DNA of 39,163 nt from contig CALURI010000018.1 in NCBI GenBank assembly GCA_944323135.1, positions 1 to 39,163 on the forward strand, written 5' to 3'. Below are positions 794 through 39,163 of the stretch, piece after piece. A model generated the notes under the pieces. That model did no database searches. It was not told the origin of the DNA and was given only the letters and a program-made list of their open reading frames with translations. The first letter of the stretch is position 1. Each line of letters begins with the position of its first letter. The position numbers and the translations under genes were made by a program. Origin of the DNA: Candidatus Gastranaerophilales bacterium (GTDB lineage Bacteria > Cyanobacteriota > Vampirovibrionia > Gastranaerophilales > Gastranaerophilaceae).

Positions 794-799
794 TAATAT
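794..799 (+). promoter_or_regulatory. -10 element of the XRE gene, leaderless geometry
   Basis: TAATAT ends six bases before the ATG at 806, and no Shine-Dalgarno sequence is present. A palindromic TCGC-GAAA-GCGA at 765-776 lies just upstream and could be an operator. No good -35 is visible. Confidence 0.45.
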
Positions 800-7090: not shown

Positions 7091-8056
7091 TTAAATATCC
7101 CTTTTTTTTATTTCATTAATTATTTTTTTTGCAGCTTCTTCTACAGGAGCTTTTATAGTACATCCTGCAGCAAATTTATGACCGCCGCCTCCAAAAACTT
7201 CACAAATTTCTGCAACATCTGCAAATTTACTGCGCATGGAAATTTTTGTTCCGCCTGATTTCATTTCTTTAGCGACAAAAGCAACCCTTGTAGTAACAAT
7301 TGCACGCAATTTTTCTGTCAAACCCTCCATACAATCATCACCTGCGGAGAATTTTTCCATATCTTTTTTATAAACAAGTGTATAAGCAATTTTGTCATCT
7401 TCAAGAAATTTTGCTTTGCTTATACAATGAGATTGGAACATTACAAGGGTTTTAGAATCTGATTCATAAACTTTTTTATAAATATCAGAAGGATTTACTC
7501 CGATTTCTACAAGCTTTGATGCTGCTTCAAAAGTCGAAGGTTTTGTATTATCAAACCTAAAAGAACCTGTATCTGTTAAAATCGCCGTATACAAACAAAT
7601 TGCTGTATCAAGATTTATTTTCCAATCCATATTCTGAAAACAATTCAACAAAACTTCACCTGTCGAACTTGCATCAGCATTTATAAAATTCAAATCAGCA
7701 TAACTGTTATTTGTCTTATGATGGTCAATATTTACCGTAAATTTTGACTTTTCAAAAAGGATTTGAGCATCGCAAATCCTTTCAATTGAAGCGACATCAA
7801 CATTTATAACAAGATCATATTCTCTTGATTTGTCAACATCTTCAACAGATTTAACTTCACTTAAATGCGGAAGATATGAATATACATCAGGGATTTTAGA
7901 AATTGCAATCATATCACATTTTTTCTTAAATTTTTCTAAAATTGCAGAATACAATCCGCACATCGAACCTAATGTATCACCGTCAGGGTTAACGTGTGAA
8001 GTTATCAATATATTTTTGGATGATTTTATGATATCATTTAATTTAGAACAATCCAT
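7091..8056 (-). CDS. nrnA: DHH-family oligoribonuclease / pAp phosphatase (NrnA)
   Basis: The 321-residue protein degrades very short RNA fragments and can dephosphorylate 3'-phosphoadenosine 5'-phosphate, linking RNA turnover and sulfur metabolism. The DHH domain shows SHVNPDGDTLGS (metal motif), VINVDVASIERI, and the name-giving IDHHKTNN. The C-terminal DHHA1 domain carries GGGGHKFAAGC, which binds the substrate phosphate. Length matches the family. There is no ribosome binding site. Instead TTGAAA, 16 bases and TAACAT precede the ATG by six bases, so the mRNA is probably leaderless. It heads the nrnA-yihY-aldolase-clpB run and diverges from dciA. Confidence 0.92.
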   Translation of the reverse strand: MDCSKLNDIIKSSKNILITSHVNPDGDTLGSMCGLYSAILEKFKKKCDMIAISKIPDVYSYLPHLSEVKSVEDVDKSREYDLVINVDVASIERICDAQILFEKSKFTVNIDHHKTNNSYADLNFINADASSTGEVLLNCFQNMDWKINLDTAICLYTAILTDTGSFRFDNTKPSTFEAASKLVEIGVNPSDIYKKVYESDSKTLVMFQSHCISKAKFLEDDKIAYTLVYKKDMEKFSAGDDCMEGLTEKLRAIVTTRVAFVAKEMKSGGTKISMRSKFADVAEICEVFGGGGHKFAAGCTIKAPVEEAAKKIINEIKKRDI

Positions 8057-8062
8057 TTTTTA

Positions 8063-8090
8063 ATGTTAACACAAAAAAGTTCGGTTTCAA
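8063..8090 (-). promoter_or_regulatory. Leaderless-type promoter of nrnA
   Basis: On the minus strand TTGAAA (8085-8090), a 16-base spacer and TAACAT (8063-8068) end six bases before the nrnA ATG. The -35 reaches to within two bases of the divergent dciA start codon, so the two genes compete for the same short region. Confidence 0.6.
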
Positions 8091-8091
8091 A

Positions 8092-11644: not shown

Positions 11645-11672
11645 ACTATAATTATGGAATTTATGAAATCAA
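11645..11672 (-). promoter_or_regulatory. Leaderless-type promoter of the histidine kinase gene
   Basis: TTGATT (11667-11672), 16 bases and TATAGT (11645-11650) are read on the minus strand. The hexamer ends eight bases before the ATG, and there is no Shine-Dalgarno sequence. It is back to back with the dnaG promoter. Confidence 0.6.
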
Positions 11673-11692: not shown

Positions 11693-11721
11693 TTGATTTA
11701 TGTTTGTGTTAATGCTAAACT
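11693..11721 (+). promoter_or_regulatory. Leaderless-type promoter of the dnaG-rpoD operon
   Basis: TTGATT (11693-11698), 17 bases and TAAACT (11716-11721) with an extended TGC before it. The hexamer ends six bases before the dnaG ATG. No ribosome binding site is present. Confidence 0.62.
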
Positions 11722-17669: not shown

Positions 17670-17698
17670 ATTATATTAGAAACACAAGCAAGTTACAA
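17670..17698 (-). promoter_or_regulatory. Leaderless-type promoter of lepA
   Basis: TTGTAA (17693-17698), 17 bases and a perfect TATAAT (17670-17675) are read on the minus strand. The hexamer ends seven bases before the lepA ATG. Confidence 0.72.
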
Positions 17699-19221: not shown

Positions 19222-19250
19222 AGTTTAGCTGAATTTTAAATTTTAGGCAA
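19222..19250 (-). promoter_or_regulatory. Leaderless-type promoter of the TrmB-family gene
   Basis: TTGCCT (19245-19250), 17 bases and TAAACT (19222-19227) are read on the minus strand. The hexamer ends six bases before the ATG. It lies at the edge of the 154-bp repeat. Confidence 0.5.
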
Positions 19251-22797: not shown

Positions 22798-23445
22798 CTA
22801 CCGTATATTTTCAAATTTTAATTGATTTCTATATAAATTATCAATTAATTTAGCAATATCTTCTTTATCTTTCTTTTCAGGCAATTTTATATTGTCATAA
22901 GATCTTGTTAATATTTTAGCCGGTTCAACAGGTTTATATTCAAGATTTTTATTATTAATCCAGCTTGTAACTTTTTGAGTTTCAGGATCAATTTTTTTGA
23001 TTATACTGACAGTTTTTCCGTCCCGTTTATAAATAGATATAGTAACAATATTACCAGTTTCAGTATCGTATTCTTGAATTGACGAAATTTTTGTTTCATC
23101 TTTAATATTAAAATTTATAGTACGAACTTTTTTACCTGAATTTATATCATATTCATCAATTGATTTATACAAAACATAATTAACAGTCCTTATTTTTTTT
23201 CCTGATTTTCTGTCATATTCATCAATTGAACGAATTTTTTTATCGTTAAAATAATCATAATGAGTTGTTTTTACTCTTGAACCTGTTGTAACATCAATTT
23301 CAATAACTCTGTCAATTGATTTTCCATTTTTACGATATATAATTTCTTCTCTTGTTTCAGGATGCATATTTGAATAAAGAAGTTTCAAATGTTTATCTTC
23401 TTTTTTTTCAGGAAACGCTTGATGGATTGCCATTAATAAATTCAT
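22798..23445 (-). CDS. Hypothetical protein with repeated [IDEYD-x-SGKK-hydrophobic] units
   Basis: The 215-residue protein is built from degenerate units of about 17-24 residues: VIEIDVTTGSRVKTTHY, SIDEYDRKSGKKIRTVNY, SIDEYDINSGKKVRTINF, SIQEYDTETGNIVTISIY and IKKIDPETQKVTSWI. Each gives two short beta strands around a D-x-x-[ST]-G turn. The pattern resembles DUF2963-type or MORN-like repeats. The N-terminus (MNLLMAIHQAFPEKKED) is not a convincing signal peptide. AGGAG lies six bases before the ATG. It stands alone. A surface or protein-interaction role is a guess. Confidence 0.6.
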   Translation of the reverse strand: MNLLMAIHQAFPEKKEDKHLKLLYSNMHPETREEIIYRKNGKSIDRVIEIDVTTGSRVKTTHYDYFNDKKIRSIDEYDRKSGKKIRTVNYVLYKSIDEYDINSGKKVRTINFNIKDETKISSIQEYDTETGNIVTISIYKRDGKTVSIIKKIDPETQKVTSWINNKNLEYKPVEPAKILTRSYDNIKLPEKKDKEDIAKLIDNLYRNQLKFENIR

Positions 23446-23901: not shown

Positions 23902-23904
23902 AAT

Positions 23905-23959
23905 AAAATCACCTATAGTTTATAAATGATACTATAGGTGATTTTAAAGTATTTGTCAA
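23905..23959 (-). promoter_or_regulatory. hxlR promoter with a perfect 15-bp operator
   Basis: On the minus strand TTGACA (23954-23959), 17 bases and TATAGT (23931-23936) form a near-consensus promoter. Two perfect arms, AAAATCACCTATAGT and its complement, at 23905-23919 and 23931-23945 with an 11-base spacer, cover the -10, the start site and the AGGTG ribosome site. A dimer bound here would block transcription and translation. Confidence 0.85.
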
Positions 23960-27342: not shown

Positions 27343-27378
27343 AGCTTGATTTTAGCATAAATTAAAAATTTATTATTT

Positions 27379-27794: not shown

Positions 27795-27834
27795 AAAGTG
27801 GTGATTGATAGAAAAATAACATAATATATTTAGT

Positions 27835-28170
27835 ATGGATGGTAATAATATAAAAAAGATTTTTGGTTCATCTGTTCAAGAAATAAGGAAAGCTAATGGT
27901 ATAACTCAAGAAAAATTAGCAGAACTTATTGGTAAAGATAAGAATACAATCAATCGGATAGAAACAGGTATCAATTTTGTGACTGGTGAAACTTATGCTG
28001 ATTTATGTAATGTATTAAATGTCCATCCAAGTATTTTAATGACACAAAAACCTGTATTTCTTTTGCAGGAACATATAAATTATAGAAATGAAATTAATCA
28101 ATTACTAAAAACTTTTCCTCCAGAAAAATTGAAAGATATATATAATATTTTATTAGCAATGAGTAAATAA
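27835..28170 (+). CDS. XRE-family transcriptional regulator
   Basis: The 111-residue protein starts with a Cro/C1-type helix-turn-helix (VQEIRKANGITQEKLAELIG, then KNTINRIETG) across about residues 10-68. It continues into a short helical tail (EHINYRNEINQLLKTFPPEKLKDIYNILL, in parts) that probably dimerises. A TAATAT ends seven bases before the ATG, with no ribosome site, so the message is likely leaderless. Palindromic operators lie between it and the divergent NUMOD-like gene. It ends ten bases before the convergent ispF stop. Confidence 0.88.
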   Translation: MDGNNIKKIFGSSVQEIRKANGITQEKLAELIGKDKNTINRIETGINFVTGETYADLCNVLNVHPSILMTQKPVFLLQEHINYRNEINQLLKTFPPEKLKDIYNILLAMSK

Positions 28171-29520: not shown

Positions 29521-30048
29521 TTATCCTTTAATTTGAGCTCTCATTAATGCGCAAAGAGTTTTTGCGTCATTAATTTCGCCTTTATCAACCATTTTTAAAA
29601 CGTCATCATATTTGTACTCTAATGCCTGAATGATTTCACCTTCATCAGGGTGACAGTGAGTATATTCTAAATCTTCAGCCATATATAAATAAAGTTTTTC
29701 ATCACTATACCCTGGTGATGTATAAACATAGCCTAAATCAGTCCATTTATTTGCGCAATAACCTGTTTCTTCTTCCAATTCACGTTTTGCAGCTTCAAAC
29801 GGATTTTCTCCCACTTCAAGTTTTCCTGCAGGAAGTTCATACAAAACTTCTTTCATCGGATAACGAAACTGCTTAACTAAAAGAATTTTATCTCCTTTTT
29901 TAGCTAAAATTACGACACCGCCTGAATGTTTTACCACTTCTCTAAAACTTTCTTTCCCTGTTGAAAGTTCAATTTTATCCTTATAAAGTTTTACAACTCT
30001 TCCTTCAAAAATAAGTTCCGAATTAATTGTTTTTTCCGTAAATTCCAT
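29521..30048 (-). CDS. NUDIX hydrolase, probable ADP-ribose pyrophosphatase
   Basis: The 175-residue enzyme hydrolyses a nucleoside diphosphate linked to another group. It has the NUDIX box starting at GKLEVGENPFEAAKRELEEE with TGY after it. A Pro-rich turn follows (VYTSPGYSDEKLYLYMAEDL), the pattern typical of ADP-ribose pyrophosphatases. Length matches NudF-type enzymes. There is no ribosome site; a TAATAT ends six bases before the ATG, though its -35 is poor. It is followed at three bases by the HAD phosphatase gene. Confidence 0.9.
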   Translation of the reverse strand: MEFTEKTINSELIFEGRVVKLYKDKIELSTGKESFREVVKHSGGVVILAKKGDKILLVKQFRYPMKEVLYELPAGKLEVGENPFEAAKRELEEETGYCANKWTDLGYVYTSPGYSDEKLYLYMAEDLEYTHCHPDEGEIIQALEYKYDDVLKMVDKGEINDAKTLCALMRAQIKG

Positions 30049-30101
30049 ATTTAAATATTAACATGAAAAGGAATTAAGTCTAATATTTAATAAAATAGTA
30101 C

Positions 30102-30957: not shown

Positions 30958-30969
30958 GTAACATATAAT
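30941..30969 (+). promoter_or_regulatory. Leaderless-type promoter of small HTH gene A
   Basis: TTAACG (30941-30946), 17 bases and a perfect TATAAT (30964-30969) end six bases before the ATG at 30976. It overlaps the divergent prepilin promoter, so the two genes cannot be transcribed freely at the same time. Confidence 0.65.
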
Positions 30970-30975
30970 CATAAA

Positions 30976-31188
30976 ATGAAAGCAAGAAATAAAATAAAAT
31001 CTTTAATTGCCCTACGGTGTCTTACTATAACAAAACTTGCAATGTTAATGAAAGAAAAAACAGGTAAACCTTATACATTCAAAAGTTTAACCGGAAAACT
31101 CCAAAGAGGTACTCTTTCATTGGATGAAGCATATATAATTGCAGATTTGTTGGGATATGAACTTGAATTTATTGACAAAATGAAATAA
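30976..31188 (+). CDS. Small HTH protein A, divergent from prepilin A
   Basis: The 70-residue basic protein is a minimal helix-turn-helix: LIALRCLTITKLAMLMKEK, then the recognition helix and GTLSLDEAYIIADLLGYEL. It shares SLxxLTxKLxxGT and the LGY ending with the 77-residue protein at 36470, and both sit opposite a prepilin gene. It has no other domain. Its -10 hexamer ends six bases before the ATG, there is no ribosome site, and its promoter overlaps that of the prepilin, so control of the prepilin and of itself is likely. Its stop codon is directly adjacent to the convergent HEAT-like gene's stop. Confidence 0.72.
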   Translation: MKARNKIKSLIALRCLTITKLAMLMKEKTGKPYTFKSLTGKLQRGTLSLDEAYIIADLLGYELEFIDKMK

Positions 31189-36457: not shown

Positions 36458-36463
36458 TATAGT
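36458..36463 (+). promoter_or_regulatory. -10 element of small HTH gene B, leaderless geometry
   Basis: TATAGT ends six bases before the ATG at 36470, exactly as at copy A. There is no Shine-Dalgarno sequence and no clear -35 at 17 bases. Confidence 0.5.
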
Positions 36464-36469
36464 AATGTA

Positions 36470-36703
36470 ATGAAAAACGAATATATTTTGTCAAAAGATA
36501 ATATCAGAAATACAATAAAACTTTTAACAACCTTTGAAGGGAAAACTCTTACAAGATTAAAAGTTGATATCAATCACAAATATAATAAAACAGATTCTTT
36601 AGAAAATTTAACAAACAAACTCCGTAACGGTACTATAAAAGTAAGTGAACTGTTAGAAGTTTTTGATATTTTAGGATATGACGTTGTTGTAAAAAAGAAA
36701 TAA
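36470..36703 (+). CDS. Small HTH protein B, divergent from prepilin B
   Basis: The 77-residue protein is homologous to the one at 30976: an N-terminal helix pair (IRNTIKLLTTFEGKTLTRLK) then DSLENLTNKLRNGTIKVSEL and LEVFDILGYDVVV. Both are small basic helix-turn-helix proteins opposite a prepilin. I chose the ATG at 36470, which a -10 precedes by six bases, rather than the upstream in-frame TTG at 36449. It ends near a 62-bp repeat array that lies between it and ffh. Confidence 0.68.
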   Translation: MKNEYILSKDNIRNTIKLLTTFEGKTLTRLKVDINHKYNKTDSLENLTNKLRNGTIKVSELLEVFDILGYDVVVKKK

Positions 36704-38268: not shown

Positions 38269-38274
38269 ATTATA
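38269..38274 (-). promoter_or_regulatory. -10 element of ffh, leaderless geometry
   Basis: A perfect TATAAT on the minus strand ends six bases before the ffh ATG. The expected -35 position does not match the consensus, and the site lies just after the stop of the upstream small gene. Confidence 0.6.
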
Positions 38275-39076: not shown

Positions 39077-39163
39077 GGAGGAGTGCCAGAGCGGTTGATT
39101 GGAGCAGTCTTGAAAACTGTCGTACGTTCACGCGTACCGTGGGTTCGAATCCCACCTCCTCCT
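39077..39163 (+). tRNA. tRNA-Ser (anticodon TGA)
   Basis: The 87-base sequence gives a 7-bp acceptor stem (GGAGGAG with CTCCTCC), an anticodon stem around CTTGAAA, a long variable arm with stem GTACG/CGTAC as expected for serine, and a T arm with loop TTCGAAT. The discriminator is T instead of the G found in nearly all bacterial serine tRNAs. The window ends at this base, so any encoded CCA cannot be seen. Confidence 0.93.

Follow-up and report, generated by a model that had tools for sequence, protein, structure and literature searches.

Promoters placed on the start codon mark a predicted leaderless gene class beside Shine-Dalgarno genes in a gut Gastranaerophilales bacterium

Many genes of this member of the Gastranaerophilales (gut Melainabacteria) carry no Shine-Dalgarno (SD) sequence and have a -10 hexamer in a nearly fixed position directly before the start codon. 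We conclude that these are very probably sigma-70-type promoters which start transcription on the A of the ATG, giving leaderless mRNAs beside a normal SD system. Counted from the start codon, the hexamer spans -12 to -7, just where a -10 box canonically lies upstream of +1. A T precedes the ATG at -1, and the A would serve as the initiating +1 base; the mRNA would open with 5'-AUG and have neither leader nor SD, ribosomes would bind the 5'-terminal AUG directly, as described for leaderless mRNAs, and the SD system would run in parallel in the same genome.

The genome comprises 1.95 Mb in 34 contigs at 31% GC, and the window analysed here is the entire contig 18 (39,163 nucleotides). The analysis covered 1.57 Mb (80%) of the genome, taken stretch by stretch, in which 1,609 genes were predicted by a dicodon model that chose start codons blind to promoter and ribosome-site information. 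The gene finder was home-made and part of the starts are probably wrong, an error expected to blur a peak at 6 bases rather than create one. Across the 1,592 starts that entered the distance spectrum, 70 genes have an exact TATAAT whose last base is 6 bases from the start codon and 17 have one at 7 bases, against a background mean of 7.2 per distance at spacers 8–44 (p = 5e-44 for distance 6); with the window left out (1,553 genes), the counts are 68 and 16. A preliminary description of the window had staked its case on such a genome-wide peak at 6, 7 or 8 bases. Such a peak exists, with a sharp maximum at 6 and a lesser one at 7, while spacer 8 is not enriched genome-wide (25 observed vs 62 expected with a looser -10 motif, TAnnnT with at least 4 of 6 matches to TATAAT).

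This looser motif also separates the two kinds of genes. Among 621 genes without SD it is found at spacer 6 in 144 and at spacer 7 in 52 (196/621 together), as opposed to one gene at each spacer among those with an SD of at least 5 nt (2/556). The SD class and the -10-at-ATG class are thus almost mutually exclusive, bearing out the earlier proposal that two initiation modes exist side by side. The assembly itself did not yield the 16S 3' end; in genomes of the same genus this end carries an intact anti-SD, GGATCACCTCCTTTCT, and SD initiation can therefore be taken as intact.

A two-motif mixture model assigned 18% of genes to the leaderless class, 65% to SD and 16% to neither. These sizes are soft, as Markov-generated upstream regions also attract sizeable weights. 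In the latter, however, the weights are scattered over spacers, and the evidence therefore lies in the peak at 6–7 rather than in the raw mixing fraction. Spacers 6–7 take 84% of the class weight, though the model permitted 3–13. Leaderless genes at these two spacers make up ~15% of genes in the model and a strict motif count minus background gives ~10%, which puts the class at about 10–15% of genes, or roughly one in eight.

The anatomy of the class is that of a promoter. Its learned -10 matrix reads TAtaaT, and TTGACA (5/6 matches) lies 16, 17 or 18 bp 5' of the -10 in 7, 20 and 4 genes, respectively, with about one gene at other spacings. An extended -10, TRTG, is seen at -17 to -14, and a T-rich patch is present directly upstream of it, at -19 to -17. 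A T occupies -1 in 81% of the class vs 48% of SD genes (p = 2e-18), and adjoins the ATG in spacer-6 and spacer-7 genes alike, evidence for a start site fixed on the ATG itself. This bears on the strongest alternative, namely that the promoters are real and the transcripts near-leaderless, with leaders of 1–5 nt. Many bacterial start sites shift by a base or two and spacer-7 genes do exist; yet a spacer of 6, where the peak lies, is the discriminator length of canonical promoters, and whether the spacer is 6 or 7, the T at -1 and the A at +1 keep the initiator at the ATG, so that we regard such short leaders as unlikely, though leaders of 1–3 nt may occur.

Gene context points the same way. An upstream gene on the same strand lies within 25 bp for 6% of the class vs 30% of SD genes (p = 5e-15), as expected of genes that head their transcription units, and where the upstream gene is divergently oriented the gap has a median of 102 vs 147.5 bp (p = 3e-12), falling to 41 bp in the seven head-to-head pairs in which both genes belong to the class. 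Together with the -35 at 17 bp, the extended -10 and the T at -1, this depletion from operons and these shorter gaps fit leaderless transcription. They also weigh heavily against the idea that the element, A/T-rich, no more than 13 bases from the start codon and in the place of an SD, is no promoter at all and acts in translation, as an S1-binding or Bacteroidetes-type non-canonical ribosome site. Such a signal would be equally useful inside operons, where the class is depleted, and would account neither for the shorter divergent gaps nor for a TATAAT held rigidly at one or two distances, a -35 at 16–18 bp and an extended -10. A Bacteroidetes-type site also serves operon-internal genes and is no promoter, which is the reverse of what we find, and we consider a translation signal highly improbable.

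ATG is the start codon in 96% of the class vs 92% of SD genes (p = 0.03), a difference suggestive of translation from a 5'-terminal AUG. A small second residue (A, G, S, T, C, P or V) is found in 18% of the class vs 33% of SD genes (p = 2e-5), perhaps because the initiator methionine is removed less often or because expression is lower; the class also has fewer genes with C at +5. Among non-operonic genes with a prepilin-like N-terminus, 0/23 belong to the class (p = 0.04).

Within the window, the looser -10 stands at spacer 6 or 7 in 12 of 39 testable genes, compared to 3.0 expected when it is counted at spacers 8–44 (p = 2.6e-5), and the mixture model places 11 genes in the class (posterior 0.79–0.99; Table 1). 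These include nrnA, dnaG, lepA, the TrmB gene, the AlkD-like gene and ffh, all listed as leaderless in the preliminary description, which had also correctly read an exact TATAAT before lepA, ffh and the small gene at 30976. Positions 8063–8090, from which that description had set out, are exactly the minus-strand promoter of nrnA. Its inclusion of the histidine kinase is unsupported, relying as it does on distance 8. Four small HTH/XRE genes had been counted as leaderless; Pfam recognises HTH_3 in those at 806 and 27835, and the genes at 30976 and 36470, if these were meant, are without a Pfam HTH hit. The NUDIX gene at 30048 belongs to the class, though absent from the earlier list. Clear ribosome sites had been ascribed to prs, the TPR gene, hxlR and hsp20: the first three have SD matches, while hsp20, with the putative site GAAAGGGA ahead of a GTG start, is ambiguous (SD posterior 0.10).

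Table 1. Predicted leaderless-type promoters and associated features in the window
Feature	Position	Strand	Placement	Basis or remark
-10 TAACAT of nrnA	8063..8068	-	6 bases before ATG (8056)	posterior 0.92
-35 TTGAAA of nrnA	8085..8090	-	16-bp spacer to -10	5/6 matches
nrnA coding region, predicted leaderless	7091..8056	-		Pfam DHH, DHHA1
-10 TAATAT of HTH_3 gene at 806	794..799	+	6 bases	Pfam, mixture model
-10 TAAACT of dnaG (11728)	11716..11721	+	6 bases	mixture model
-35 TTGATT of dnaG	11693..11698	+	17 bp from -10	
-10 TATAAT of lepA (17662)	17670..17675	-	7 bases	kept across family
-35-like TTGTAA of lepA	17693..17698	-	17 bp from -10	
-10 TAAACT of TrmB-like regulator (19215)	19222..19227	-	6 bases	mixture model
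-35 TTGCCT of TrmB-like regulator	19245..19250	-	17 bp from -10	
-10 TAAAAT with extended TATGC, AlkD-like gene (27342)	27349..27354	-	6 bases	Pfam, mixture model
-10 TAATAT of HTH_3 gene at 27835	27822..27827	+	7 bases	posterior 0.79; Pfam
-10 TAATAT of NUDIX gene (30048)	30055..30060	-	6 bases	Pfam, mixture model
-10 TATAAT of small gene at 30976	30964..30969	+	6 bases	mixture model
-10 TATAGT of small gene at 36470	36458..36463	+	6 bases	posterior 0.80
-10 TATAAT with extended TGTG, ffh (38262)	38269..38274	-	6 bases	mixture model
TATAGT before histidine kinase (11636)	11645..11650	-	8 bases	posterior 0.16; unsupported

As to what kinds of genes are leaderless, regulators and core translation and replication genes had both been singled out. 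Core genes of this kind are indeed present in the window (lepA, ffh, dnaG), with no enrichment of core translation/replication genes established. An excess of regulators had to be dropped, since Pfam tallies show no more HTH proteins than in the SD class (Cro/C1-type HTH_3 in 7/148 leaderless-class vs 5/147 SD-class proteins, no difference). The same tallies hint at a GTPase bias; the motif filter used, too strict, caught one protein.

Several further features of the window may be recorded. The divergent genes nrnA and dciA (DUF721, start 8092) have 35 bp between their start codons (8057–8091), and the nrnA -35 ends one base short of the dciA start codon. The nrnA promoter fills this gap, and any dciA promoter would therefore overlap it or sit within nrnA. 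Upstream of hxlR (23901), a few bases from its ATG, lies a 16-bp hairpin, AAAATCACCTATAGT ... ACTATAGGTGATTTT (23902–23945, minus strand; -19.5 kcal/mol, z -5.2), with an SD-like AGGTGA in its 3' arm; it could be either an HxlR operator palindrome or a hairpin hiding the SD. Positions 22798–23445 encode a protein with DUF2963 repeats. Both ends of the contig carry tRNA genes (1–74 and 39077–39163), so that the assembly breaks in tRNA-bearing sequence, perhaps repeats.

The box before lepA is conserved among relatives. Matches to lepA came from Gastranaerophilales/Melainabacteria assemblies at 86–93% identity, and a perfect TATAAT stands 6–7 bases before the start in 30 of 36 family sequences, a set that includes identical or near-identical pairs and is not one of independent observations. 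The TATAAT-bearing upstream regions have no SD match. In three of the remainder TATAAT lies at 9–10 bases and in three it is absent; these last three have a TAA just 5' of the ATG, as if lepA there followed directly behind an upstream gene. The region from -45 to -23 and the discriminator vary while TATAAT stays. Bases -21 to -18 are T-rich and belong to the most strongly conserved stretches of the lepA promoters. Such hexamers are frequent at 31% GC (~4% of genes per distance by chance), but with 12 window genes where 3 are expected, a genome-wide peak of the significance given above, and an N-terminus of lepA conserved across the family along with its TATAAT, an origin in AT-rich chance or wrong start-codon calls has a negligible probability.

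Where other Gastranaerophilales were compared around lepA, class genes with co-linear N-termini fall into the class again in 13 of 17 cases, several of which are lepA itself, and none of the 17 orthologs has a clear SD; a dnaG ortholog in a relative is likewise in the leaderless class. The proportion is 5/9 in a genome of another genus (G001) and 1/7 in one of another family (G253), and switches occur in the reverse direction too, as 3 of 10 SD genes belong to the leaderless class in the relatives' lepA neighbourhoods. Position-resolved spectra show the same peak in other Gastranaerophilales lepA neighbourhoods, in G001 and in G275, and a weaker one in G253; for the farther families, ~90–120 kb was read from each and the counts are too small for a peak by themselves. 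Firmicutes stretches lack the peak at the ATG in such spectra.

To follow the signal across the Cyanobacteriota we used a crude whole-genome measure, the count of TATAAT-N6-ATG over that of TATAAT-N9-ATG (N6/N9). The ratio is 2.35 in the own genus (18 genomes summed), and the excess runs almost throughout the family. Within the order, families f2 and f42 give 1.7–1.9 and four others (f38–f41) about 1.0–1.1, little or no excess. Further families gave 1.53 in f3, 2.20 in f6, 3.6 in f14, 4.0 in f10 and, on few counts, 3.0 in f13. The photosystem genes psbA/psbD are missing from the sampled genomes of f2, f3, f6, f10, f13 and f14, as well as from those of f4, where N6/N9 is 1.17 on few counts. Well-sampled photosynthetic families (f11, f12, f19, f20, f21, f28) range from 0.95 to 1.15, f21 having a slight excess (1.15, p = 0.04), and small photosynthetic families scatter from 0.2 to 2.5, none significantly. 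A clean split, with the signal in all non-photosynthetic lineages and in no photosynthetic one, is ruled out by f38–f41, f4 and f21; the leaderless mode is common in non-photosynthetic lineages and not universal. Tentatively, and with the balance of our judgement against it, leaderless initiation might be a gene-specific conserved trait of the non-photosynthetic branches, with genes such as lepA leaderless across many genera, that was largely lost toward the oxygenic cyanobacteria and in some Gastranaerophilales families.

If the class is leaderless as we propose, start-codon calling can be sharpened across a large, mostly uncultured group of gut bacteria, and the genes concerned are predicted to escape leader-based regulation. 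As a translation factor predicted to be leaderless family-wide, lepA offers a concrete test gene. The cyanobacterial phylum would then hold two contrasting start systems, a mixture of leaderless and SD initiation in the gut relatives vs a weak, unexplained pattern in the oxygenic members, and the gain or loss of leaderless initiation could be studied within one phylum.

Our literature search found no report of leaderless genes for Melainabacteria or Vampirovibrio. In oxygenic cyanobacteria, start sites at most 10 nt from start codons have likewise been mapped, but they are few: 19 start sites were judged leaderless in Synechococcus elongatus UTEX 2973 (PMC6091082), and 6–8% of primary start sites lie within 10 nt of the start codon in Prochlorococcus MED4 (PMC5607370). 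GeneMarkS-2 (Lomsadze et al. 2018) predicts leaderless transcription and, in the summary given in PMC9581028, Cyanobacteria exemplify a weak upstream pattern of unknown mechanism, which sets the present genome apart. The closest parallel are the TA-led genes of Zheng et al. 2011, which exceed 20% in Actinobacteria and Deinococcus-Thermus (PMC3160421) and resemble the class described here in having TANNNT ~12 bp before the start, no SD, and SD-led genes in the same genome. The first T of our -10 lies at -12 (spacer 6) or, less often, at -13 (spacer 7), close to the ~12 bp of TA-led genes. In the same survey, many Cyanobacteria genomes had neither SD-led nor leaderless genes (PMC3160421), whereas the present genome, at 31% GC and likewise from the cyanobacterial phylum, uses both. 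Leaderless genes of this anatomy are therefore already known in bacteria (PMC3160421, PMC9581028); what is new is their heavy use in this clade.
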